From: Natronorubrum halalkaliphilum
GTDB lineage: Archaea > Halobacteriota > Halobacteria > Halobacteriales > Natrialbaceae
Direction: 5' to 3'
DNA: 64,000 nt
Assembly (NCBI RefSeq): GCF_009834785.1
Contig: NZ_WUYX01000038.1
Location: 126,947 to 190,946, forward strand
The position numbers and the translations under genes were made by a program. Below are positions 5,943-53,901 of the stretch, piece after piece; within the stretch, counting starts at the first letter, position 1, and every line of letters starts with the position of its first letter. Below the pieces are notes generated by a model, which saw only the letters and a program-made list of their open reading frames with translations, searched no databases and was not told the origin of the DNA.

Positions 5943-8294
5943 ATGAGTTCTGCCGTCGGTGAGGATACGGCCAAAGCGATCACCACTGGCCGAGAGACGA
6001 TCGGCGCGATGCTCTCGAGTGCGCAGACACATCTGCAGAAGGTGTTTATCGTCTTCGTTATCGGCTTCATCGGCTCCTTCTACGCCCTGCGGATCTGGAT
6101 CTGGGACTTCCTTGAGGCGACGGCGAAAGCCGAGATGGCGCAGTTCGTGGCGGACCAGACCGACATCATCACGCGGACGCCGTTCGAGGTCATCCTCTTA
6201 CAGGCCAAGATCGGGATGTTCGTCGGCGTCATGGTGGCCATTCCCGCCTTGCTGTATTTCTCGCGAGATGCGCTTCGAGAGCGCGGCTACGATAGCGTCG
6301 TTCCCATTTCTCGGGGGTACATAGCCGCCCTCGTGACGAGTTCGATCGTCCTGTTCGTGGGCGGCGTGATTTATGCGTACACGATCTTCTTCCCCTACGC
6401 CTTCGACTTCCTCGCACACAACGCCGTCAACGCCGGCGTCAAACCCAGCTTCGGTATCACCGAGTTCACCGAGTTCATCGCGTTGCTCACGCTTTCGTTC
6501 GGGCTCGCCGCCCAACTGCCGCTGTTTATGGGCGTGCTCTCGTATACTGAAATCGTCCCCTACGAAACGTTCCGGGACAAGTGGCGCCACGCAATCGTCG
6601 GCGTCGTCGTCTTCGGTGCGCTGTTCTCCCCGCCGGACCCCTTTACCCTGATCATGTGGGCGATGCCGATGGTCGCACTCTACATCTTCAGTCTCGGACT
6701 GGCGAAAGTCGTCACGAACATTCGCCGTCGCGGTGCCGCCGAAACGAACACCAGCGGCACGGCCCATTTCAAGCGCCGCATTCTCCAGTTTACCGGTACT
6801 CTGGGGATCGTCGCCCTGCTGACTGGCGCGTTCGTCAATCAGGGCGGGTTCGACTACCTCGAGGAATCGTTCTATCCGCTCCTGCCGTCGGGGCTTCAGC
6901 CCGGTCCGAGCGGCCCGGGCGGTCTCGAGGCCCTCGCGGCCGAACACGGCCTGCTCGGTGACGCCGCGGTCGGCCTGCTCGTGGCCGGCGGCGTCGGCTT
7001 CTTCGTCCTGCTTGGCTACACGATCAAGGTCTTGCAGGCACCGGTCTACCCACGCGAAGACGATATCCGGACCGCCGACGACCCCGACGAAATCGACTTC
7101 GAGACCCTCGCGGCCGAGGATATCGAGGACGTCCCCGCGCAGGTCTTCCTCGCGATGGACGAGGAGGAGGCCCTGGACTACTCCCGCCAGGCGATGTATG
7201 ATGATAACCGGGAGAAGGCACAGGCGATCCTCAATCGATTCGATACCCTGGAAGCGGAACAGGACGGCGACGGCAGCGGCGACGGTGCATCGGCCGGAGC
7301 GAGCGCAAGTGGCGGGGACGCGGCCGCCGAAGACGCCGAAGAGGGCGGATTCTTCTCGAGTACCGCCGCGGGAATGCTCGATCCGTTCACCGAGGAGGAG
7401 ACGACCGAGGACGACATCGGCGGCTACGCCTACGACCTCGCCTTCATCTTCCAGAGTCTGACGTCGAAGATGTTCCGCATCGTGGGCGTCTTCATGATCG
7501 TCATGGGCGGGACGTTCTTCTGGCTCTACAGCGGCGGTCTCCGGACGATTTACGAGCAGTTCCTCTCGGGCGTTCCGGACTACGTGTTGGTCGAGGTCGC
7601 CGAACAAAACGACGTCTCGGGTGACCCCGCCACGATGTCGACGGGCGAACTCATCGAGCAGATGGATCTCGTGATCGCGCTCCATCCGGTCGAAGTGCTG
7701 ATCTTCGAGGTGAAGGTGAGCGTCCTGGCGGCGATCGTCACCATCTTGCCGATGGTGCTCTACTACGCCTGGCCCGCGATGAAAGAGCGCGGACTGGTCT
7801 ACGGCGATCGGCGGACGTTCATCGTCTGGGGTGGCTCGATGTTCGGCGGATTCGCGCTCGGAACCTATCTCGGGTTCTACTGGGTCGCACCGGCGATCAT
7901 CTCCTATCTCGTCACCGACGCGATCACCAACGGGATGGTCGTCTCCTACCGGATCAGCAGCTTCTTCTGGCTGGTGATCTTCACGACGATCGGTATCGGC
8001 TTCCTCATGAACATCATCGTCACGATGGCGCTGTTCCACGTCGGCGGGATCATCAGTTACCGGACGATGCTCCGTCGTTGGCGGCCCGTCGTCGTCGGTA
8101 TCTTCGCCATCGCCGCGATCGCCAGCCCCAAAGGCATCCTGACGATGTTGCTGTTTTCCATTCCGATCGCGTTGACCTACATGCTGGGGCTGGCCGTCCT
8201 CTATCTCCTCACCGGCGGCGGCCGACTGTTCGGCGGTGGCGGCGGCGAAACTGCGTCGGAACCGGAGCCCGATTCCGGTGCCGTCCCCGAGTAA
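5943..8294 (+). CDS. tatC2: Tandem TatC protein (TatCt), twin-arginine translocase component
   Basis: 783 residues, about 2.5 times a normal TatC. Two TatC-like halves (about residues 20-270 and 495-760) are joined by extra membrane segments and a hydrophilic acidic linker (about 360-480) rich in Gly, Ser, Ala and Glu. Both halves show TatC helix patterns, but the second lacks a clear copy of the HER-type loop and is more diverged. Such double TatC proteins are specific to haloarchaea and work with or beside the single TatC. The start is the ATG at 5943. Together with the divergent gene at 4843-5799 this forms the core Tat locus; no tatA is visible in the window. Confidence 0.93.
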   Translation: MSSAVGEDTAKAITTGRETIGAMLSSAQTHLQKVFIVFVIGFIGSFYALRIWIWDFLEATAKAEMAQFVADQTDIITRTPFEVILLQAKIGMFVGVMVAIPALLYFSRDALRERGYDSVVPISRGYIAALVTSSIVLFVGGVIYAYTIFFPYAFDFLAHNAVNAGVKPSFGITEFTEFIALLTLSFGLAAQLPLFMGVLSYTEIVPYETFRDKWRHAIVGVVVFGALFSPPDPFTLIMWAMPMVALYIFSLGLAKVVTNIRRRGAAETNTSGTAHFKRRILQFTGTLGIVALLTGAFVNQGGFDYLEESFYPLLPSGLQPGPSGPGGLEALAAEHGLLGDAAVGLLVAGGVGFFVLLGYTIKVLQAPVYPREDDIRTADDPDEIDFETLAAEDIEDVPAQVFLAMDEEEALDYSRQAMYDDNREKAQAILNRFDTLEAEQDGDGSGDGASAGASASGGDAAAEDAEEGGFFSSTAAGMLDPFTEEETTEDDIGGYAYDLAFIFQSLTSKMFRIVGVFMIVMGGTFFWLYSGGLRTIYEQFLSGVPDYVLVEVAEQNDVSGDPATMSTGELIEQMDLVIALHPVEVLIFEVKVSVLAAIVTILPMVLYYAWPAMKERGLVYGDRRTFIVWGGSMFGGFALGTYLGFYWVAPAIISYLVTDAITNGMVVSYRISSFFWLVIFTTIGIGFLMNIIVTMALFHVGGIISYRTMLRRWRPVVVGIFAIAAIASPKGILTMLLFSIPIALTYMLGLAVLYLLTGGGRLFGGGGGETASEPEPDSGAVPE

Positions 8295-19120: not shown

Positions 19121-19444
19121 ATGCCCTCCGCGAACGACCCTGCAGACGCGGCAGAGACGCACGAGCCGAGTTACGTCGCGACGTTCGATCCGGACGCCGG
19201 CGAACGGGCGAGCGAAGCCGTCGTGACGGCAGTCGCAGCGCTCGTCGGCGCGAAACCGATCGAACTCGAACCGCTGTACGACGCGGTGGATCCGGACGCG
19301 CTCGATTCGTTGGTCGATCACGCACGACGTGTCGACGACGCCGGAACCCACGAACTCCGGTTTACCTACGAAGGGTTCGATATCGGCGTCCAGAGCGACG
19401 GCCAGGTCCGAATCCAGGACGCTTCTCTCGCGTCGAATTCGTAA
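19121..19444 (+). CDS. HalOD1 (halobacterial output domain 1) protein
   Basis: 107 residues. Residues 25-100 match the HalOD1 pattern: an N-terminal helix VVTAVAALVGAKPIELEPLY, then DAVDPDALDSLV, and a beta hairpin LRFTYEGFDIGVQSDGQVRI. HalOD1 is found alone or fused to sensor and receiver modules in haloarchaea and is thought to act as a signalling output. Its biochemical activity is not established. The motif ELEPLYDAVDPDALDSL is closely shared with the second copy at 34257-34514. It lies downstream of the HTH_10 regulator at 18110-18790. Confidence 0.85.
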   Translation: MPSANDPADAAETHEPSYVATFDPDAGERASEAVVTAVAALVGAKPIELEPLYDAVDPDALDSLVDHARRVDDAGTHELRFTYEGFDIGVQSDGQVRIQDASLASNS

Positions 19445-19524
19445 CTCGAGTAAGCGCTCGGTTCTCGGCTCGAGTCTCGTACTGTCGTCGAGGTGCTCCG
19501 TTTTAGACGGGGCGGAGTCGGGCG

Positions 19525-19554
19525 TTTTCAGTTTCAGTTTCAGTTTCAGTTTCA
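19525..19554. repeat. Short tandem repeat, GTTTCA unit
   Basis: Four perfect GTTTCA hexamers (19531-19554) follow an imperfect GTTTTCA. They lie between the stop of the HalOD1 gene and the convergent end of the hydrolase gene. A slippage-prone tract with no evident coding or terminator role; the surrounding bases show no stem. Confidence 0.8.
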
Positions 19555-19622
19555 ATCCCCCCGCGCCCGCTCTTCCTACCGCCCGCTCGCGTCCCCTTCC
19601 GATCGCCCTCGGACCGCGACCG

Positions 19623-20486
19623 TCAATCGTGTTCCTCGAGAAAGCCGAGCAGTTCGTCGTTCACCGTGTCCGCGTTCTCGATGAAAAAGCAGTGAGAGCC
19701 TCCTTCGAAGCGTTCGAGTCTGGCGTTCGGGATCGCTTCCTCGAGCAGCCGTGCGTTTCCGGCGGGGACGACTCGATCCTCGGTTCCGTGCATGATCAGC
19801 GTCGGGACCCGAATCCCGTCGAGTCGATCGCTGACGTCGAAGTTCAGGACGGCGGCGGCCTGGGCCTCCCGGGCCGGGTCGCCGGCGTCCTGCTCGAGTC
19901 GCCACTCGATGATCCGGTCCATCAAGTGTGGGTTCCGGTTCGTAAAGCGTTCGGTGAACGCGGGTCGCATCCGGTGGCGAATCGTCTCCCGTTCGCTCGC
20001 TCTCTTCGGGACGTCGAAGATGAACTCCTGGGTTTCCTCCGGGACGGGCATCGAGTCGGGGCCGCCGTGGCTGGTACAACAGAGGGTGAGCGTCTTCGCC
20101 CGGGTGTACTCAATCGCGTAGCGCTGGGCGATCATCCCGCCCATGCTCGCACCGACGATGTGGGCCTCGCGGATCCCGGCGTCCTCGAGGACGGCCTCGA
20201 GGTCGGCCGCCAGCCCGCCGATGGAGTAGCCGGCCAACTTGAAGATCAGCGGGGCGCGGAGCTTTCGCGGGAGTCGCGGAAGCAGCGGTGGCAGTCCGGC
20301 GTCGGACCGGCCCGTCCCGCGGTTGTCGGGTGCGACCACGCGATAGTGGTCCCTGACGGCCTCGCGCTGCCAGCGCCACATCCATCGGCCGTAGCCCAGT
20401 CCCTGCACGAAGACGACCGGCGTTCCGTCGCCACCGTCGTCGGTCTCGTAATAAATCGACACGCCGTCTCGTATCGCCCGTGGCAT
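19623..20486 (-). CDS. Alpha/beta hydrolase-fold protein
   Basis: 287 residues from ATG 20486 (MPRAIRDGVSIYYETDDGGD). Fold landmarks: the oxyanion region VVFVQGLGYGRW, DNRGTGRSD, the nucleophile elbow VGASMGGM with its Ser, Asp in HGTEDRVVP, and His in GGSHCFFIE. It therefore has a full Ser-Asp-His triad and is probably an active esterase, lactonase or C-C hydrolase of the MenH/BioH type. The substrate cannot be read from sequence. A paralogue with the same C-terminal pattern (TVNDxxLGFLE) but no nucleophile Ser is at 47471-48295. The frame extends upstream to 20621 without family features. It is divergent from priL. Confidence 0.88.
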   Translation of the reverse strand: MPRAIRDGVSIYYETDDGGDGTPVVFVQGLGYGRWMWRWQREAVRDHYRVVAPDNRGTGRSDAGLPPLLPRLPRKLRAPLIFKLAGYSIGGLAADLEAVLEDAGIREAHIVGASMGGMIAQRYAIEYTRAKTLTLCCTSHGGPDSMPVPEETQEFIFDVPKRASERETIRHRMRPAFTERFTNRNPHLMDRIIEWRLEQDAGDPAREAQAAAVLNFDVSDRLDGIRVPTLIMHGTEDRVVPAGNARLLEEAIPNARLERFEGGSHCFFIENADTVNDELLGFLEEHD

Positions 20487-20660
20487 ACTCGGACTGACGT
20501 ATCGGACTCCCTTGAAATCGACCCTCGCTTCTCGATCGGCGATTCCCGAGAACGGGCGCTGGCAACCCGACGACGGAACGATCCAATCCCGGCTTACCCC
20601 CGACCCCGACCCGACGAACAATCAGCGGGTTTAACCCGGCGCAGTAATATCCAATTACCG

Positions 20661-21749
20661 ATGCAGCGACTGCACGCCCGGTACCCGTTTCTCGAGACAG
20701 CCCGCGACGCCGTGGCGACGGAGGCCGTCGATCTGGCCACCGTCGTCGAGCAAGATCGGGCGGTCGTCGACCGCGCCCGCGAGCGCGTGGTGGCGGCACT
20801 CGAGGACGGCGAAACCGGCGAGCCACGACGCGAGCCTCGGACCGAGTTGCTCTCCTATCCCGTCGCGCGCGTCCTCGTTTCGATGGTCGACGAACGCGTC
20901 CTCGTGCGCAAGTACGCCCGCGCCGAATCCACGACCGCCTACGACCGATTTACCGCGGACTTCGAGGAAACGACCGAACTCAAGAGCGTCGACTCGACGG
21001 GACTGGATCTCGAGACGCTCCTCGCGGAGTTCGACCTCGAGGAGGTAGTCCGGGAGACGGCCGCCGGCTATCGGATCGACGTGGGCACCTACGTCCCACT
21101 GGCCGAGGACCTCTGGGACGACGAGTGGCGACTCGTCAATCGCGCGCTGGCCGACGGCGAGGTCCCCGTCACGGAGGCCGAACTCCTCACCCTGCTACAG
21201 GAGGCGATCCGAACCCGGATCGAGGACGGCCTCCCGTTCGACGTTCCTCAGGTCATCGAGACGGCGCTCGAAGACGACGCCGCCGAGATTCGGGAGGTGC
21301 TCGCGGATCTCGAGTTGACCCGCGAGATCGACACCGTCGTTCCGGATCTCTTCCCGCCGTGTATGAAGGCCCTGCTGGACCAGATTCAGAAGGGCGAACA
21401 CCTGCCACACCACTCCCGGTTTGCGATCACGGCCTTCCTGACGAGCATCGGGATGTCGACCGACGAGATCGTCGACCTCTACCGAGTCAACTCCGCTTTC
21501 GGCGAAGAGATGACGCGCTATCAGACCGACCACATCCGCGGTGACTCCTCGCCGACGGAGTACTCGCCACCCTCGTGTGCGACGATGCAGTCCTACGGCG
21601 ACTGCGTCAACAAAGACGACCTCTGTGAGCGCATCCCGCATCCGATGGCGTACTACGAGAACCGGATCGACGACGCCGACGACGAGGAGATCGAAGACTG
21701 GCGCGAGAACGAGAGCGACGGCGAAAGCGAGTCGGCCAGCGGCGATTGA
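20661..21749 (+). CDS. priL: DNA primase large subunit PriL
   Basis: 362 residues from ATG 20661 (MQRLHARYPFLETARDAVAT). The helical N-terminal region carries YPVARVLVSMVDERVLVRKY, and the C-terminal Fe-S domain holds the four conserved cysteines: LFPPCMKAL, PPSCATMQSYGDC and DDLCERI. Together they bind one [4Fe-4S] cluster. PriL with catalytic PriS makes RNA or DNA primers for replication. priS is not in the window. The last 25 residues are an acidic tail (DEEIEDWRENESDGESESA). The frame is open for a long way upstream but that part is antisense to the hydrolase gene and is excluded. Confidence 0.95.
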   Translation: MQRLHARYPFLETARDAVATEAVDLATVVEQDRAVVDRARERVVAALEDGETGEPRREPRTELLSYPVARVLVSMVDERVLVRKYARAESTTAYDRFTADFEETTELKSVDSTGLDLETLLAEFDLEEVVRETAAGYRIDVGTYVPLAEDLWDDEWRLVNRALADGEVPVTEAELLTLLQEAIRTRIEDGLPFDVPQVIETALEDDAAEIREVLADLELTREIDTVVPDLFPPCMKALLDQIQKGEHLPHHSRFAITAFLTSIGMSTDEIVDLYRVNSAFGEEMTRYQTDHIRGDSSPTEYSPPSCATMQSYGDCVNKDDLCERIPHPMAYYENRIDDADDEEIEDWRENESDGESESASGD

Positions 21750-44939: not shown

Positions 44940-45260
44940 TCAGGTTCGGGAGTGTGAGACAGCGAAACCGAACTCAAGCGACGCAAGATCGATTCGTTCA
45001 ACGAATCCGTCACAGTCGTCGTCGAACACTCGTACCGGAGAACGCCGTCGATGTCTTTGGACGTTGGACTCGTACGGTTCAGTGACCATCCGCTCGAGTA
45101 GTTTCTGTTCTATCACCTTCTTGCCAGTCTCGAGTCGGGTTTCGACCCGTAATTCCTCGAGACGGGACTTCGTTTGATCGGTGACGAAGAAAAAGAAAAC
45201 GGGCGGAGCAATCAGTCCGAACAGCCCAGCGAGGCCGATACGTCGCCGCTTGTCTCGGCG
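44940..45260 (-). pseudogene. Possible degraded reading frame downstream of the GATase gene
   Basis: Read leftward, an open frame partly overlapping the 3' end of the GATase gene gives a hydrophobic helix (GLAGLFGLIAPPVFFFFV) and a charged helix (KSRLEELRVETRLETGKKVI), then loses protein-like character before TGA at 44940-44942. No start codon was found in the short open stretch above it. It may be a gene remnant or chance. The rest of the 334-base space (44878-45211) holds nothing else I recognise. Confidence 0.2.
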
Positions 45261-45949
45261 GTGACCTCGACCGCCTGCAGTTCTTCGACGAACTCGAGGA
45301 AGTTATCGAAGACCAACTTCGCCTCGCAGGCTCGCCGGTAGTTCGCGTCGGTGATCTCGCCGAGGATCGAGTCGAGGCGCTCGTCGGAGAGTTCCTTCCG
45401 ATGGACGAGTTCGCGGGCAGTCTTCATATCGTACTCGGGATGGAACTGCACGCCGAAGACCCGGTCCTTGCGGAAGCCGTGGTTGGAGTAGCGGTTCTCG
45501 GCGAGGGGATCGGCCCCGGGCGGGAGTTCCGAGACCTCGTCGGAGTGGCTGGTAAAGGCGGTGAACTGTTCGCCGATACCGTCGAACAGTCGCGAGTCGC
45601 CGTGGTGTTCGATATCGCTGTAGCCGACCTCGTAGGCACCCATATCCTCGACGGTGCCGCCGAGGACGTCCGCGAGCAGTTGGTGGCCCCAACAGACGCC
45701 CAGGAACGGCATCCCGTGATCGATCGCGTCTGCGACCCACGCTTTCGTGGGCACCATCCAGTCTTCGTCCCAGTAGACCGACGATCGTGACCCAGTGACG
45801 ACCGCGCCGTCGTAGTCGAAGTCGTCGGGCACCTCGCCCGCGGTGGCGTCGAATTCGGAGAGGGAGGCGTCGAGTTCGCGTCGGAAGTTTCGTGTCGTGT
45901 TCTCGTCCCGGTGAGCCGCGTTCAGGACGGCAATACGGACCTGACTCAT
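45212..45949 (-). CDS. Class I glutamine amidotransferase-like protein (GMP synthase GATase-like)
   Basis: 245 residues from ATG 45949 (MSQVRIAVLNAAHRDENTTR). Glutaminase landmarks: the oxyanion and strand VVTGSRSSVYWDED, the nucleophile elbow FLGVCWGHQLLADVLGG (Cys), SHSDEVSELPPGA and the catalytic FGVQFHPEYD (His and Glu positions). Stand-alone GATases of this size release ammonia from glutamine for a separate synthetase, or act as gamma-glutamyl peptidases. The partner is not adjacent, so the substrate is not known. The gene is not guaA itself, which has an additional large synthetase domain or subunit. Confidence 0.88.
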   Translation of the reverse strand: MSQVRIAVLNAAHRDENTTRNFRRELDASLSEFDATAGEVPDDFDYDGAVVTGSRSSVYWDEDWMVPTKAWVADAIDHGMPFLGVCWGHQLLADVLGGTVEDMGAYEVGYSDIEHHGDSRLFDGIGEQFTAFTSHSDEVSELPPGADPLAENRYSNHGFRKDRVFGVQFHPEYDMKTARELVHRKELSDERLDSILGEITDANYRRACEAKLVFDNFLEFVEELQAVEVTAETSGDVSASLGCSD

Positions 45950-46079
45950 TGTCCCGTATTGGCTACTCCGAAGACATAGGCTTTCCGCCCGGCACCGGCG
46001 TTGCCGCAACCGCTCACGGCTAGATATTTGCCGGTCTCGAGTGCTGTGACGGAAATTCGGTTACGTCGATAATGGTGGA

Positions 46080-47348
46080 TTACCGGGGCAGATACACGCC
46101 GTTAGCGGTTCGGGTAAATCGGTCACCGGTATCGAACCAGCCCTCCTCGAACCGGCCGCGATCGTCCGTATCGGAACACTCCTCGCGCTGAATGTCCGCG
46201 GACTCGTCCCAATTTTCGTCGTCGGTTCCGGCAGCGTTTACGTAGCCGTCGGCGACAACCGGTCCCGACAGTTCGAGTCGGCCTTCGCTCTCGCCCTCGA
46301 GGACGGCCCCCTCCTCGTCGATCAGCCGAGCGCGACAGTCGGGAATCGGCCGCCCGACGCCGGGTTCGTCGGCGGTCCTCTCGCTTGCGTCGACGTCCGT
46401 CGCGAACGGCTGACTGAACGCGGTCGGACACTCGAGGCGGCCGGCGGCGCGAGCGACCGGGACGTCGGCCTCGCGGTACTGCTCGCGAACGTCGTCGCTC
46501 ATCGGCCCCTCGACGACGGCCCGCTCGAGCGAGTCGACGGTGTCCGAAAACGCCGCTTCGGCGGTCAGATCCGACAGCGCCTGATTTCGACCCGCGAGAA
46601 ACGTCGCGTCCGCCGTATCGATGGCGGCCAGCGTATCGCCGGGGTCGAACGCCCTGTCGAGGAGGAGGGTCGCGCCGACGTACAACGCCGACAGCGCGGT
46701 TCGAACGAGCCCGTCGGCCGCGGAAAGCGGCGTCACCAGGGGAACCGTGTCCCGTCCCGACAGCCCCCACGCGACGGCGCTCGAGATGCAGTTCCACTCG
46801 ATCGTTCGCGTCGAGTAGCCGACGACCGGACGGCCGTCGTCGCCGTGTACGCAGAGAAGCGGCGCATCGGAATCGCGGTCGTGGCCGGAGCCGTCGGGAA
46901 CCGACTCGCGGTCGGACTCGGCCAGTTCCTCGAGCGTCACCGACCGATCGAACGGAATCGAGCGTACGAGGTCGCGCTGGGCGGCTTCCGAAACTACGAG
47001 GTCGGGCTCGAGAAGGTCGAACGGGCGTTCGACGGAAACCGGCGTCAGCCAGTGAGAGATCGGCGCGAGCGTCGCGCCCAGTCGACGGCAGGCGAACAGG
47101 ACCGCGAGCGAGGCGACCCGGTTTCGGGTGACGAGACAGACGGTGTCGCCGGATTCGACGCCGAGTGCGGCGAGGTGTTCAGCGGTTCGGTCCGCCATCC
47201 CCGCGAGTTCCGCGTAGGAGACGCGGTTCTCGTGGATCGTCTCCGCGGGGGCGTACAACCGCTCTTCGGAGACGTCGACAACCGCCGTCCGATCCGGGAA
47301 ACGGTCGGCCCGACGAGCCAGCGAGAGAGTCACGACTCCGAGTTCCAC
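46080..47348 (-). CDS. Degenerate AMP-binding (acyl-CoA synthetase-like) protein without C-terminal domain
   Basis: 422 residues from GTG 47348. The N-terminal ANL fold is recognisable: FPDRTAVVD, VSYAELAGMADRTAEHLAAL, GDTVCLVTRNRVASLAVLFA and LGATLAPISHWL. The phosphate loop, normally S-S-G-T-T-G-x-P-K, reads VHGDDGRPVVGYS, so its Thr and Lys are gone. The protein stops at EGWFDTGDRFTRTANGVYLP, just where the mobile C-terminal domain with the catalytic Lys should begin. It is therefore unlikely to adenylate a substrate and may be a scaffold, a binding protein or a gene in decay. The gene is intact as a reading frame. The co-directional hydrolase upstream (47471-48295) has also lost its nucleophile. 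Confidence 0.75.
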   Translation of the reverse strand: MELGVVTLSLARRADRFPDRTAVVDVSEERLYAPAETIHENRVSYAELAGMADRTAEHLAALGVESGDTVCLVTRNRVASLAVLFACRRLGATLAPISHWLTPVSVERPFDLLEPDLVVSEAAQRDLVRSIPFDRSVTLEELAESDRESVPDGSGHDRDSDAPLLCVHGDDGRPVVGYSTRTIEWNCISSAVAWGLSGRDTVPLVTPLSAADGLVRTALSALYVGATLLLDRAFDPGDTLAAIDTADATFLAGRNQALSDLTAEAAFSDTVDSLERAVVEGPMSDDVREQYREADVPVARAAGRLECPTAFSQPFATDVDASERTADEPGVGRPIPDCRARLIDEEGAVLEGESEGRLELSGPVVADGYVNAAGTDDENWDESADIQREECSDTDDRGRFEEGWFDTGDRFTRTANGVYLPR

Positions 47349-47470
47349 GCTGAAACCCGTAGTAGATAGGGGCTCAAGCGCAAGCAGCCGCTTCGGAGAG
47401 AACGGAGCAACCCTCGATATCGAAGATCAGTTTCCGAATTTCGTCGGCGTACGCCCTCGGGACGGGTGCA

Positions 47471-48295
47471 TCAGTCGTCCGCAGCCCAGGACTCGAGAAA
47501 GCCCAGAATCCGGTCGTTGACCGTCCGCGAGCGCTCGATCTGGCACAGATGGCCTGCACCCTCGAGGCCGACGAACTTCCCGCGAGGCAGCCCTCGAGCG
47601 AGGGTCTCACCGGCCGAGACCGGGACCAGTTCGTCCGCGCCGCCGTGGAACACCCGCGTAGGTTGAGTGACGTCGACGAGCCAGTCGTCCGCGTCGAATC
47701 CCTCGAGCGCAGCGACCTGCGCCTCCCAACCCTCGCGGGTGGCGTCGCCGTCGGCCCGCCAGTCGGCGATCCCCTCGCAGACCTCGGGCTGGGCCTCGCG
47801 GAACTCGTCGGAAAGGCCCGCAGCGAGCGACTCCCGAAGCGCGTCTCGATCGCCCGGCGGCGCGAACAGTGGTTCGATATCGAACGCCTCGCCCCGAGCG
47901 GCCGTCCCGAACAGCGTCAGCGTCTCGACTCGGGTGGAGTCTCGCGCGGCCTGCAAAGCGATCGCGCCGCCGAGGCCGCAGCCGACGAGGTGTGCCTTGC
48001 GGATCGAACAGGCTTCGAGGACGGCCTCGAGATCGTCAGCGAGGGTCTCGAGGGCGTACGGTCCTGCCGGCGCGTCCGAGCGGCCGGTGCCGCGGAGGTC
48101 CCAGACGACGACCTCGCGGGGGCCGGCCAGCGCGGCGTGTTGCCAGCCCCACGACCAGCCACCGAGACCGGCTTCGGAGACGAAGACGACGGGGGCGCGA
48201 TCGTCCCCGATTTCGGTTTCAGCTTTGGTTTCGGTCTCGCCCTCACCCTCGCGGTCGTAGTACAGCGAGACGTCCCCGTTCGACGCAGTTGGCAT
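47471..48295 (-). CDS. Alpha/beta hydrolase-fold protein lacking the nucleophile serine
   Basis: 274 residues from ATG 48295. The fold is clear: APVVFVSEAGLGGWSWGWQH, WDLRGTGRSDAPAG, Asp in FHGGADELVPVSAG and His in EGAGHLCQIE, with the family C-terminus TVNDRILGFLESW. The nucleophile elbow reads LVGCGLGGA, placing Gly107 where the paralogue at 19623-20486 has Ser (VGASMGG). Cys106 sits one position early. Without a nucleophile, ordinary esterase activity is not expected; such pseudo-hydrolases can act as receptors or partners. Residues 18-33 are a Glu/Thr-rich insertion. It shares orientation with the defective AMP-binding gene, so the two may form one unit. Confidence 0.85.
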   Translation of the reverse strand: MPTASNGDVSLYYDREGEGETETKAETEIGDDRAPVVFVSEAGLGGWSWGWQHAALAGPREVVVWDLRGTGRSDAPAGPYALETLADDLEAVLEACSIRKAHLVGCGLGGAIALQAARDSTRVETLTLFGTAARGEAFDIEPLFAPPGDRDALRESLAAGLSDEFREAQPEVCEGIADWRADGDATREGWEAQVAALEGFDADDWLVDVTQPTRVFHGGADELVPVSAGETLARGLPRGKFVGLEGAGHLCQIERSRTVNDRILGFLESWAADD

Positions 48296-48374: not shown

Positions 48375-49724
48375 TTAGCCCGACAGAAATACGCCTGCTG
48401 CCGTCGCGAGCGTCTCACTCGCCGTCAGCACCTCGTCCCACTCGATCGACTCCTCGGGGAAGTGCGCCTGCTGGATATCCCCCGGACCGAACAGCACCGT
48501 CGGAATGCCCGCGCGTACGTAGTGTCGGCTGTCCGCGCCGTAGGTCGCGCCGCGAGGCTCGGTCGCCGTCAGCCCGTTCGAGAGCATCGCCTCCTGTACC
48601 GCCCGAACCACCGGTTCGTCCGCGTCGATCTCGGCGGGTTCGAACTGGATCGAGAACCGTTCGAATTCGGGTGGGTTCGAGTCGAAGAAGGGGTCGTCGG
48701 CGACGACGTCCGAGAGTTGCCGCTCGAACTCCCGCTCGACCGCCTCGACCGTTTCGCCCGGCGCGACCCCGATCCGAAGCTCCGCGGTGAGTTCGTCGGG
48801 AACCGACGACGCCCAGTTCCCTGCCTCCACCCGGCCGACGCAGACGGGCCACGGGATCGGAAACTCCTCGTAGAGCGGATGGCTTACCCGCTCGCCGCGT
48901 TCGGTCTCGAGGTCCTCGAACGCCCGACGGATCCGCTCGAACGCGGGCAGGACCGACTCGCCGTGCCAGCGCGTCGCCGCGTGGGCGGACCGGCCCTCGA
49001 GACGGAGCCGTTTCATCAGACTCCCCTCCGTCGCGACCACTGGTCGACACTGGGTGGGTTCGGCGATGATCGCCACGTCTCGCGAGAACGGATACGGGTT
49101 CTCGAGGGCCGCGGCCGCCGCCCCGATGCCGCCTTCCTCCTCGCCGACGACGCTCTCGACGACGAGTCGGCCGTCGAGGTCGAGGTCGAGGTCGATGGCG
49201 GTGTCGGTATCGATGTCAGTATCGCTATCCGTACCGCTGTCCTCGTGGTCGTCGACCATCGATTCGAGATGGCGTGCCGCGAACACGCAAGCCGCCACTC
49301 CGCACTTCATATCCGTCGCGCCGCGAGCCGTAAGCGTCGTCCCCGGCGCGCTATCGCCATCGCCATCGGACCACCGCGGTTCGAACGGCTCACCCTCCCA
49401 GCCGTTCCCCGCCGGAACGACATCGATGTGTCCGTTCAACACCAGCGTCTTTCCCGCGTCGGGATCGCCGAACTCGAGGACGCCGCCCACGCTCGGTCGG
49501 GTTGCGGTCTCGATGTCGTCCGGGTTGTCGGGAAACGACGGGTGCTCGGCGAGCGCCTCGGGATCGGCCTCCCACCGATAGGTCTCGAAGCCCCACTCCT
49601 CGAGCGCGTCGGCGACCCATCGCTGGGCCGCCGCCTCGTCGTCGTTTCCGGCGGTCGTCTCGAATTGACACAGTTCGTCGGCGAACGACCGGAGTTCGTC
49701 GTCCCACGCCGTCGCGAAGTCCAT
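48375..49724 (-). CDS. M20 family metallopeptidase / deacylase (ArgE/DapE type)
   Basis: 449 residues from ATG 49724. The dinuclear zinc ligands and general base are visible: LNGHIDVVP (His, Asp), GATDMKCG (Asp), VVGEEEGGIG (Glu-Glu) and IIAEPTQCRP. The dimerisation domain includes GRSAHAATRWHGESVLP and VGRVEAGNWASSVPDEL. The C-terminal histidine ligand seems to be in ADSRHYVRAG or a neighbouring residue. These enzymes cut the amide of N-acyl amino acids or dipeptides; the exact substrate is unknown. An acidic insertion (residues 158-178, DSDTDIDTDTAIDLDLDLD) looks like a slippage-derived Asp tract. A truncated copy of a related gene lies at 50330-50848. Confidence 0.9.
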   Translation of the reverse strand: MDFATAWDDELRSFADELCQFETTAGNDDEAAAQRWVADALEEWGFETYRWEADPEALAEHPSFPDNPDDIETATRPSVGGVLEFGDPDAGKTLVLNGHIDVVPAGNGWEGEPFEPRWSDGDGDSAPGTTLTARGATDMKCGVAACVFAARHLESMVDDHEDSGTDSDTDIDTDTAIDLDLDLDGRLVVESVVGEEEGGIGAAAAALENPYPFSRDVAIIAEPTQCRPVVATEGSLMKRLRLEGRSAHAATRWHGESVLPAFERIRRAFEDLETERGERVSHPLYEEFPIPWPVCVGRVEAGNWASSVPDELTAELRIGVAPGETVEAVEREFERQLSDVVADDPFFDSNPPEFERFSIQFEPAEIDADEPVVRAVQEAMLSNGLTATEPRGATYGADSRHYVRAGIPTVLFGPGDIQQAHFPEESIEWDEVLTASETLATAAGVFLSG

Positions 49725-49866
49725 AGCGAAGGCAGAACTGGAACTATCAAAGCTACACGGGTTTGACCGACGAGAGACCGCGGCATCGATTCGGTCTCGA
49801 CCGACGGAGAAAACGGAGTGGAAACCCACAGCACGGCAGTTCGGCCGGAAAAGAGTCGGATGCAGA

Positions 49867-50325
49867 TCAGGCCGATGATGTCGACGATCCTCTGTTCGCC
49901 CACCATCGTTTCACGAACGGTCCGAAGATGAGGGCGATGATGATGATCGACAGCACGAACGAGAGCCAGCGACCGTATTCGAGCGGGTTAATGAAGATCA
50001 TGTACGACCCGTCGGAAAGCTGGAGTGACGTGTAGAGATTCTCTTCGGCGATATCTCCGAGCACGACGCCGAGAACGAAGGCGATCACCGAGTAGTTGTA
50101 CCGGACCATGTAGAACCCGATCACACCGAAGACGATGACCGTCAGAATGTCGATCGGATTGATCCGGAGCGCGTACGTCCCGAGGAACGAGAGGACGACG
50201 ACCATTGGAATGATGTAATCCGTATCGATCTTCGACAAGTAGCCAAGCTGAGTCACCATCGTCAGCCCGAAGACGAGAATAATAACGTTTCCGACCAGCA
50301 ATGCCAGCAACATCGTGTACGTTAA
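49867..50325 (-). pseudogene. 3' fragment of a TctA-family tricarboxylate transporter membrane subunit
   Basis: About 150 C-terminal codons remain, ending in TGA at 49867. Helices such as MLLALLVGNVIILVFGLTMV, DYIIPMVVVLSFLGTYALRI and ILTVIVFGVIGFYMVRYNYS, and the loop VLGDIAEENLYTSL, match the last third of TctA, the 12-helix subunit of tripartite tricarboxylate transporters. The 5' two thirds are missing: upstream of about 50325 the frame turns into antisense of an M20 peptidase fragment. No tctB or tctC is present. The fragment must be non-functional. Confidence 0.8.
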
Positions 50326-50329
50326 CTGG

Positions 50330-50848
50330 AGTTCGCCCGAAGACCCCTCGCTCGAGGGCCACGTGACCAACATCAACATCGGCGTCGTCGAGGGCGGCGA
50401 TTGGCCCGCCTCGGTTCCGGCGGAGATGACGATGAAGGGACGCGTCGGCTGGCCACCGGGCGAGAGCCGTGCCGACGTGCGCGAGGCGATCGAAGGCGCG
50501 ATCGAAGCGGCCGCAAGCGAAGACGAATGGCTCGCCGAGAACCCGCCGACTGTCGAGTGGACCGGCTGGAACGCGGCGCCCCACGAGGTGGCCCGCAACG
50601 CCGACATCGTCGAGATCGTCAAAGGCAACGCCGAGTCGATCATCGGCGAAGAGGGGACGTTCGTCGGCGGCAACGCCGCGCTCGACGAGCGATTCTACCA
50701 GCGCTACTACGACGTTCCCGTCGTTACGGCCGGTCCCTACGGCCCGAACCTCCACGGCGTCGACGAGTATACGACCGTCACGTCGCTGCTCGAGACCGCA
50801 CGGACGATCGCAACCTCGGCGATCGATTACTGCGGCATCGCCGAGTAA
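50330..50848 (+). pseudogene. 3' fragment of a second M20 family peptidase
   Basis: About 170 codons ending in TAA. GHVTNINIGVVEGGDWPASV is the start of the dimerisation lobe strand common to ArgE/DapE-like enzymes, GRVGWPPGESRADVREAIEG follows, and the C-terminal catalytic region carries NAALDERFYQRYYDVPVVTA, GPYGPNLHGVDEYTTV. The N-terminal metal-binding half is absent: left of about 50330 the DNA is antisense TctA. An ATG inside the junction (50315) begins a frame, but a protein lacking most zinc ligands cannot be a working peptidase. Confidence 0.8.
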
Positions 50849-50900
50849 GGACTGTCGGGTTGGCGTCTGTCGGCCGGCAAAAAGCGGTCGACCTCGGCTC

Positions 50901-50982
50901 ATACGGATTACTGTAACTATGTACCGCCGATCACCAGGAACGGGGTCGGTGATCGGCGGTAATTGACTACAGTAAACCGTAT
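50901..50982 (+). repeat. Family-1 intergenic palindromic repeat, copy C
   Basis: 82 bp, nearly identical to copy B (ATACGGATTACTGTAACTAT at the left end, loop AGGAACGGGGTC). It lies between the M20 fragment and the 3' end of alaS, 12 bases from the alaS stop, so it could form the terminator-like hairpin of that gene. Confidence 0.88.
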
Positions 50983-50994
50983 CAGTGCCGCCGT

Positions 50995-53769
50995 TCAGGC
51001 GTCCTGAATCTGGCGCAACACGTTCGGCGCGTCCTCGAGCGCCTCGTCCAGGTCCTCGACGTTGGGACCGCCGCCCTGTGCGAAGTCCGGCGGACCGCCG
51101 CCGCCGCCGCCGACTCTCGAGGCGAGTTCGCCGACGACGTCGCCGGCGTTGACGCCCGACTCGTCCGGGACGGCCACGACGAACTGGGCGCCGCTTTCGC
51201 CGCTGCCCAGGACGGCGATTTTGCCCTCCTCGACGAGTGCGTTCGCGGTCGCGCGCAGTTCGCCCATATCGGCGTCGATCCGATCGACAACGGCCGTCGT
51301 CTCGCCGACCGCGACCTCCTCGCCGCCGCCTCCGCCGCCGGCGCGGGCCGCAGCGAGCTGTTCTTTCAGATCCTCGATCTCCTTGCCGCGGCCCTTCCAC
51401 TCCTCGAAGAAGCGTTCGGCCGTCTCCGGCACGTCTTCGGGCGAGACGTCGAGAATCTCGGCGGCCTCGTAGAGGGCGTCCTCTTTCCGCTGGGTCGACT
51501 CGAGTGCGGCCTCGCCGGCGGCGAACGTGATCCGCTCGACGCCGTCCTGGACCCGCTCCGTGTTCAGGACCTTGATCGAGCCGATGTCGCCGGTGCGGGC
51601 AACGTGGGTCCCGCCGCAGGCCTGAACGTCGTCGTCGACGTGGATCAGGCGGATCTGTTCGCCCGGCGGGATGCCGCCCTGGTAGAGATCGAAGCCGTGT
51701 TCGGTCTCCGCGTCGTGACGGTCGGGCCACTCCTGAGTGACCGCGGTGTTTTCCATCACGATTTCGTTGGCCAGCGACTCGATCCGCTTGACGTCGTCGC
51801 GGCTGATGCGGTCGTAATGGCGCATGTCGATCCGGGAGGAATCGACGCCCTTCTGCGCGCCGGCCTGCCGGATGTGCTCGCCGAGGATCTGCCGGGCCGC
51901 GTGGATGACGATGTGCGTCGCCGTGTGGTGGCGCATAAGCTGCCGGCGGCGGGTCGCATCGACCTGTCCGTTGACGAACTCGCCTTTGCCGGGCGTCTCG
52001 TCGGTTCGGTGGAGGATGACGCCGTCTTCGATCTGGACGTCGTCGACCTCGACCGTCGCGTCGTCGGTCGAGAGCGTCCCCGTATCCGCCGGCTGTCCGC
52101 CGCCTTCGGGGTAGAACATCGTCTGATCCAAGACGACGTCGTAGCCGTCCTCGCGTTCGAAGACGTCGAGCACGACGGCCTCGAACTGGGTTCGCTGCTG
52201 GTCGTCGTAGTACAGCTTCTCCGTCTCCGGGAGGTCCTCGAAGCGCTCGTCCTCCTCGTCGTCGACCGCCTCGGCGGTCTCGGGGGTGTCGTGGCGCTTC
52301 GCGACGAGACTGTAGAAGTCGTCCGGCACGGCGACTTCGGCACCCGCGTCCGCCGCGATCTCGGCGACCATATCGGGCTGGATACCGTGGGAATCGTAGA
52401 GTTCGATCAGTTCGTCGGTCGGGATCGGCTCGCCCTTCTCGGCGTACTCCTCGGCGAGCGTCTCGACGCGGCGACCGCCGCGCTCGAGGGTCTCCCGGTA
52501 CTTCTCGACCTCGGTGCGGACGATGTCGCGAATCGTGTCGCGGTTTTCGTAGCCGAGCCGTTCGGCCTGCATGTCGACGAGTTCGTCCAGCGGCGCGTCG
52601 ACGCCGACGGTGTCACACAGGCGCTTGGTGCGTCGAAGCACCATCCGGGCGAGATAGCCCGTGCCGACGTTCGAGGGGACGATGCCGTCGCCGAGCATGT
52701 AGGCGAGCGTTCGGCAGTGGTCCGCGATGGCGTAGATATCCTCGAGGGGCTCCATCAGCTCGGTGAGCTCGTCGACATCGACGCCGAGTTCGGCCGCGAT
52801 TTCGCCGCGAGCGGTCTCCATGTCCTCGGCCTCGTCGATGTCCATATGGCCCGCGAGCTTGGCGGCGCGGTGGACGAGTTCCTCCTGTTCGTCGGTGTGC
52901 TCGAGCCCCGCGTTGTCCTTCAGGAAAGCGATCATATCGGGGTAGACCGCCTCGTAGACCGTCGGCGTGCCCTGGGAGACCCAGGTCCAGCGCTCGAGGC
53001 CGTACCCCGTATCGACGATGTAGGTGTCCATCGGGGTGTAGCGGTTCCCGTCTTTCATCTCGTACTCGCCGTCGGAGTCCTGTTCCATCGACATGAAGAC
53101 GAGCGTGGCGAGTTCGACGCCGCGGAAGATGACCTCGATGGCGGGCCCGGCGTTGCCGCCGCCGACCCACGGGTCCTCGATGTAGATGACCTCGTCAAGA
53201 TCGACGCCCATCGACTCAAAGAAGCCGTCACAGAGTTCGACGGTCTGATCCTTCCAGTAGACCTCGCCCTCGTAGGCGTACTCGTCCGGGGCGTCCTCCC
53301 GCGTGTTGAACGCGTGGTGGGCCATCATCTCGAAGGCCATCGTGTGTCGGCCCGTCTTGCCGACGTTGTCGATGTCCTGCATCCGGATACAGGGCTGGGA
53401 GATGGTCAACGGGTTGGCCGGCGGCGGCGTTTCCCCGCTCGTCACGAGCGGCTGGAAGTCGTAAATCGACGCCTGGGTCAGCAAAACGTCGTCGCGCCAG
53501 CGGTTGGCCGCGACCGGATAGGGCTCGATCCGTTCGTGGTCGTTGTCTTCGAAGTACGAGAGGAACGTCTCTCGCATCTCCTCGAGACTGTACTCCTCGT
53601 CGAAGCCGGCGTTCTCGATGAAGCCGTACTCCTCGCAGGGCGGCTCACCGCATGTCACCCGGTCGTGATCGCGGGTCCAGAAGTGAGCGCCACACTCCGG
53701 GCACTCCTTGCGCTCGAATCCTTCCTCCTCGAAGTACTCGAGGCGGTATGCGTCCGCCAATTCGCTCAT
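50995..53769 (-). CDS. alaS: Alanine--tRNA ligase (archaeal type)
   Basis: 924 residues from ATG 53769. It charges tRNA-Ala. An N-terminal archaeal zinc motif ([20 protein letters not shown]) is followed by the class II catalytic core ([40 protein letters not shown]). The editing domain carries the HxxxH and CxxxH zinc motifs ([12 protein letters not shown] and [11 protein letters not shown]) used to clear mischarged Ser and Gly. A C-Ala-like domain follows with a coiled coil ([20 protein letters not shown]) and Gly-rich stretches ([21 protein letters not shown]). The stop is 12 bases from a family-1 repeat. Confidence 0.97.
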
Positions 53770-53901
53770 TACACGTGTGTTGGCGAGCCAGCGCCTAAAA
53801 CTGTTCCGCAACGTTCATTCCGAAAATATCGCAAGACGTGATCCGGCGCGCTCGCTCGAGCGACGACCACGTTGCGTTCGTGTGAGTAACTTCAGCGAAA
53901 A

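Follow-up and report, generated by a model that had tools for sequence, protein, structure and literature searches.

Do two adjacent haloarchaeal genes, whose products have lost the residues on which catalysis in their families depends, still encode working proteins, or are they genes in decay? The question is raised by a locus of Natronorubrum halalkaliphilum, analysed here within a stretch of 64,000 nucleotides (the window), in which an initial annotation had described a ligase-like protein (ANL) beside a hydrolase-like protein (HYD), both lacking catalytic essentials, and had proposed that they form a pair of pseudoenzymes. Because the losses are common to relatives across many genera, HYD and ANL are probably working proteins rather than decaying genes, and we consider it probable that they are two functional pseudoenzymes with a binding or regulatory role in an acyl-CoA-linked cluster.

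The comparison covered 183 loci. HYD proteins of 230-420 aa and ANL proteins of 330-620 aa, the latter lying clear of sequence ends, were retained, and incomplete frames were dropped. Distinct sequences were obtained by exact-identity reduction only, some genomes were entered twice (e.g. L035 and L171), and the totals of 125 HYD proteins, 91 ANL proteins, 129 HYD loci and 113 amidotransferases (GAT) used below are not counts of independent genomes. ANL orthologues were called at E <= 1e-60, with G029 and G033 added after their loci had been read; weaker matches, where read, were full-length paralogues. A3, A4, A5, A7, A8 and A10 are used as motif names for ANL.

Both genes were recovered as open frames on the minus strand (Table 1). 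The conserved starts of relatives favour the GTG start of ANL and the ATG start of HYD over the longer choices. The normal codon use that had been reported for both is borne out by GC contents at third codon positions of 0.81 (ANL) and 0.80 (HYD), similar to those of their neighbours as delimited by an ad hoc gene caller. Pfam matches identify ANL as AMP-binding (E 4e-34), HYD as Abhydrolase_1 (7e-20) and GAT as GATase class I (1e-23); for neither ANL nor HYD did any of the NCBIfam models listed reach its cut-off. The interval 49867-50973, which separates the M20 peptidase gene from alaS, holds probable gene remnants on both strands: a minus-strand frame whose match to the TctA transporter profile is confined to the final 90 profile positions, and a plus-strand frame at 50315-50848 that by eye resembles the C-terminal portion of an M20-type deacylase.

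Table 1. Features of the HYD-ANL locus and its surroundings, in window positions.
Feature	Position	Strand	Remarks
GAT, class I glutamine amidotransferase	45212..46009	-	active-site Cys and HPE motif retained; third in the order HYD>ANL>GAT
ANL, N-terminal-domain-only pseudo adenylate-forming ligase	46080..47333	-	GTG start at 47333, 417 aa; alternative GTG at 47348, 422 aa
End of ANL (GWFDTGDRFTRTANGVYLPR, stop)	46080..46142	-	terminus at the N/C domain boundary
Degenerate P-loop (A3) of ANL, HGDDGRPVV	46821..46847	-	residues 163-171; Thr/Lys lost, loop shortened; coordinates derived
HYD, alpha/beta-hydrolase-fold pseudo-hydrolase	47471..48295	-	ATG start at 48295, 274 aa; alternative start at 48418, 315 aa
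Gly107 codon, nucleophile position of HYD, elbow GCGLGG	47975..47977	-	coordinates derived
M20-family peptidase gene	48375-49829		upstream of HYD
alaS	50995..53811	-	marks the locus on its upstream side in many relatives

The reported absence from ANL of the phosphate-loop Thr/Lys and of the C-terminal domain was confirmed: the loop reads HGDDGRPVVGY, with no Lys after its Pro, and the stop codon falls just before the hinge. These losses are general. The P-loop Lys occurs in none of 91 pseudo-ANL proteins, and the complete motif [ST]GT[ST]GxPK, absent from them, is present in all 24 intact comparators. The P-loop Gly, Pro and Lys together with the A4 His and A5 Thr are likewise found in 24/24 intact ligases, as against at most 2 of 31 pseudo forms for any of these residues; for the A4 His, and for the A5 Thr, with which the motif YGxTE is lost, the count is 0/31. 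Among truncated proteins 67 of 78 have kept the A5 Glu but only 31 of 78 the A7 Asp (counts out of 78 omit one truncated protein, L179, of 402 aa; the true totals are 79 truncated and 12 full-length forms), from which we take the old site to be partly eroding. The C-terminal domain is gone from all 79 truncated forms, and none of the 12 full-length pseudo forms has the A10 Lys, which is Glu in 11 and Asp in one. Conversely, six residues are fixed in the pseudo clade (P104, A118, Q119, R120, S204 and A228): every one of them occurs in 30 or more of the 31 pseudo forms and in no more than 2 of the 24 intact ligases.

What remains of ANL is a recognizable domain. A confident AlphaFold model (pLDDT 85.1) aligns over residues 1-417 with the N-terminal domain of FACL13 (5zrn, residues 2-395; Z 44.5, rmsd 2.5 over 373), which indicates that ANL ends at the domain boundary. 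With FACL13, feruloyl-CoA synthetase and MenE (5zrn, 8wev, 5bus) it shares the N-terminal domain fold, the A5 position and often the A5 Glu; unlike them, it is without P-loop Lys, A4 His, A5 Thr, hinge, C-terminal domain and A10 Lys. A split ligase with its C-terminal domain encoded elsewhere was considered and rejected. A tblastn search of the window with ten C-terminal domains gave no match below E 0.05, and no remnant of this domain was found beside 78 truncated ANL genes, the single similar match (L066, 13793-13999) lying about 6.6 kb away. Nine matches in the genome to which the window belongs all fall inside open frames of at least 543 aa, that is, in full-length frames, with no stand-alone copy.

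Relatives that still carry the C-terminal domain offer a view of the order of these losses. A scan of named genomes gave 55 ANL loci in Natrialbaceae genera as well as in Halorussus, Haladaptatus and Halomicrococcus. The truncated relatives keep an open frame of 378-455 aa in many genera, and an alignment of 30 loci contained the same truncated form throughout. In Halorussus, Haladaptatus and Halomicrococcus, ANL (450-526 aa) has kept the C-terminal domain and lost the P-loop Lys, and its A10 region reads TGELDR (Lys replaced by Glu or Asp) where intact paralogues have PGKIDR; GAT adjoins ANL in these three genera, and HYD lies outside the stretch examined at L184. In the tree, all 31 pseudo-ANL proteins form one clade (100/100), next to which stand four intact paralogues (L064, L065, L068 and L198); within the pseudo-ANL clade, the 20 truncated proteins form one clade (100/100), and the full-length pseudo forms group weakly (86/58). 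As judged from the aligned sequences, ANL has descended once from an enzyme of the acyl/aryl-CoA-ligase type. Its line would have lost the P-loop Lys, A4 His, A5 Thr and A10 Lys while still of full length, the C-terminal domain being lost later in Natrialbaceae. Since full-length forms without P-loop and A10 Lys still carry the domain, the loss of catalysis seems to have come first, although this order is a reading of character states and tree, short of proof. The intact sisters L064 and L068 adjoin genes for branched-chain-type ABC transporters (families confirmed for L068, sequence likeness for L064), which hints at an ancestral role of the line in acid uptake and CoA activation.

A simple pseudogene was rejected as an explanation, since the frames are open and the losses are shared. 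No relative with intact catalytic residues was found at this locus among those examined, and the internal TGA codons flagged in two ANL matches (G095 and G098) disappeared on re-reading: the stop flagged at L052 precedes the conserved ANL start, the G098 stretch contains no stop in the alignment, and both genes are uninterrupted. Pooled dN/dS ratios were well below 1 for both genes, at 0.375 for ANL (18 pairs) and 0.249 for HYD (18), compared with 0.227 for GAT (14) and 0.138 for AlaRS (11); these are Nei-Gojobori estimates from independent close pairs in which codon bias is ignored, and in GC-rich genomes the ratio may be inflated. Full-length pseudo-ANL gave 0.409 (six pairs). Along ANL the ratio ranged from 0.20 (residues 61-120) to 0.65 (residues 361-390), with 0.45 in the old P-loop block. 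Both genes are under purifying selection, moderate in the case of ANL, with no sign of neutral decay.

Among the observations that count against functional pseudoenzymes are the partly eroding old site of ANL, a dN/dS that is higher for ANL than for its neighbours, and the absence of ANL, found in 88 of 125 family genomes, from 37 (hand count). The last two would be expected if ANL were what is left of a dispensable ligase that first died, was then truncated and is now slowly disappearing, as would the peak near residues 361-390 and the variable A7 Asp. Such a relic would, however, hardly keep an open frame across many genera with both stop-flagged genes intact, nor would it have stretches with ratios of only 0.20-0.22 and six newly fixed positions, and we regard this explanation as very doubtful.

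HYD has lost its nucleophile uniformly. It had been stated that Gly replaces the nucleophile Ser of HYD while Asp and His persist, and this holds in the window protein (Asp221 and His249) and well beyond: the nucleophile position is Gly in 125/125 distinct complete relatives, none having GxSxG, whereas Ser is kept in all seven other hydrolases matched by the HYD query in the window genome. The closest paralogue, 36% identical and intact with a Ser nucleophile, is encoded by the minus strand of this window (19623-20621); a plus-strand frame of 806 aa antisense to it (19329-21749) is probably spurious. The AlphaFold model of HYD, likewise confident (pLDDT 84.9), matches 6eb3 (Z 32.2, rmsd 1.9 over 254) and 2xua (Z 31.5, rmsd 2.1 over 245), so that the whole-length fold is common to HYD and to PcaD-type enol-lactonase and related esterases (2xua, 6eb3, 5egn), as are the acid Asp and mostly the His. 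In contrast to these enzymes, HYD has Gly in place of Ser and its HG oxyanion motif is replaced, and it scores 109.6 bits against the PcaD equivalog, far under the cut-off of 255.85. On sequence grounds, HYD is assigned to an old haloarchaeal branch of 3-oxoadipate-enol-lactonase-like alpha/beta hydrolases. Hydrolase-fold families without catalysis are already known: NDRG3 is described as a non-enzymatic member of the fold with all three triad residues substituted (PMC7022630). As in the NDRG family of that account, the fold is conserved in HYD with catalysis lost; unlike NDRG3 as characterized there, HYD keeps the Asp and mostly the His.

Most HYD proteins still have both Asp and His, so that non-classical chemistry is conceivable, with only ANL being dead and HYD still an enzyme that employs the pair as acid and base. 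Within the hydrolase fold, His-Asp pairs serve as acid/base in cofactor-free dioxygenases and in some lyases. The conservation of Asp (125/125) and His (120/125) is consistent with this, and so are G45 and W47, which are strictly conserved close to the former oxyanion side; yet the His is replaced by Arg in five proteins (four Halorussus loci and L119), whereas Gly107 is invariant throughout, and the replaced oxyanion motif also argues against it. On balance we find retained chemistry rather unlikely. Cys106 was rejected as a substitute nucleophile because Cys occurs at this position in only 63/125.

The neighbourhood of the two genes bears on whether they belong together. Of 129 HYD loci, 91 also have ANL, in every case 3' of HYD and on the same strand. 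The most constant neighbour of HYD is an intact GAT, found 3' of it on the same strand in 110/129; GAT has kept its active-site Cys in 113/113 and the HPE motif in 112/113, so that it is HYD and ANL specifically that have lost catalytic residues. Some HYD match, paralogues included, occurs in 283 of 293 genomes of the order, and HYD>GAT without ANL is seen order-wide. In 63 family genomes searched for both, all 45 with ANL have HYD, and HYD is also present in at least 17 of the 18 that lack ANL (hand counts). Because HYD occurs order-wide and ANL in fewer lineages, HYD is the more widespread of the two pseudoenzymes and probably also the older. The proposal of a pseudoenzyme pair therefore needs qualification: both proteins are conserved, with dN/dS below 1 and, in ANL, new residues fixed, but with HYD widespread in the absence of ANL the association is nested, not obligate. 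In L073 (1393-6284), L039, L037 and L047 some 2 to 4.9 kb lie between the two genes, with order and strand unchanged; at up to about 4.9 kb apart (L073), they are not always co-transcribed. At L110, which lacks ANL, a gene between HYD and GAT (7380-7955) encodes a TM2-domain protein that also matches a zinc ribbon weakly.

The order-wide HYD>GAT arrangement, the presence of HYD in nearly all family genomes lacking ANL, and one genome (G122; L055 and L128) in which HYD is far from ANL would all fit a different unit, made up of HYD and GAT, with ANL a neighbour that is independent of them and has been retained for some unrelated reason. The invariant position of ANL 3' of HYD speaks against this, as does the covariation of ANL and HYD protein distances given GAT (r 0.83, 23 pairs), although with a second control gene the partial correlation is 0.60 (p 0.09, 11 pairs). 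We consider independence of ANL unlikely. The same covariation was not accepted as proof of interaction, given the p value with the further control and the fact that ANL, as the fastest gene, is also the best clock; it fits the idea that HYD and ANL are partners and is suggestive only.

An acyl-CoA dehydrogenase gene is next on the same strand in 30/129 HYD loci, and such neighbours suggest an acyl-CoA theme for the cluster. In several haloarchaeal families the gene follows GAT (L101, 8227-9399; L105, 9466-10653; about 30 further loci), its copies being 71-88% identical to that of L105, with the exception of L066 (28%). In the window genome the dehydrogenase is located elsewhere (86% identity).

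If HYD and ANL are functional pseudoenzymes, HYD would not perform classical hydrolysis nor ANL adenylation. The N-terminal domain that ANL has kept, with the newly fixed residues near 104, 118-120, 204 and 228, would make it a module for binding or scaffolding, and HYD could be either its older partner or a parallel module. The ligand of the two together would probably be of acyl or aryl type, or else they would bind each other and GAT; either way they may regulate the small acyl-CoA-linked cluster by modulating its intact enzymes. A more specific proposal, which we consider distinctly unlikely, is that the dead HYD and ANL hold and gate the free-standing glutaminase GAT, sensing an acyl or aryl ligand and coupling nitrogen supply to acyl-CoA metabolism, both having replaced a synthetase partner; if true, haloarchaea would have a signalling complex for which two pseudoenzymes were recruited in succession.

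Studies of pseudoenzymes are mostly eukaryotic and dominated by kinases. In a limited search of the open-access literature, no paper was found on a conserved pseudo-ligase consisting of the N-terminal domain only or on the HYD-ANL family. Annotation of ANL as an acyl-CoA synthetase and of HYD as a hydrolase calls for caution. The ANL line would provide an ordered archaeal path from an intact ligase, through a full-length protein without ATP and Lys motifs, to a bare N-terminal domain, with all stages present in living genera; since these stages sit beside an older pseudo-hydrolase and an intact GAT, the route from enzyme to non-enzyme, and the purpose for which such a protein is retained, may be tested directly.
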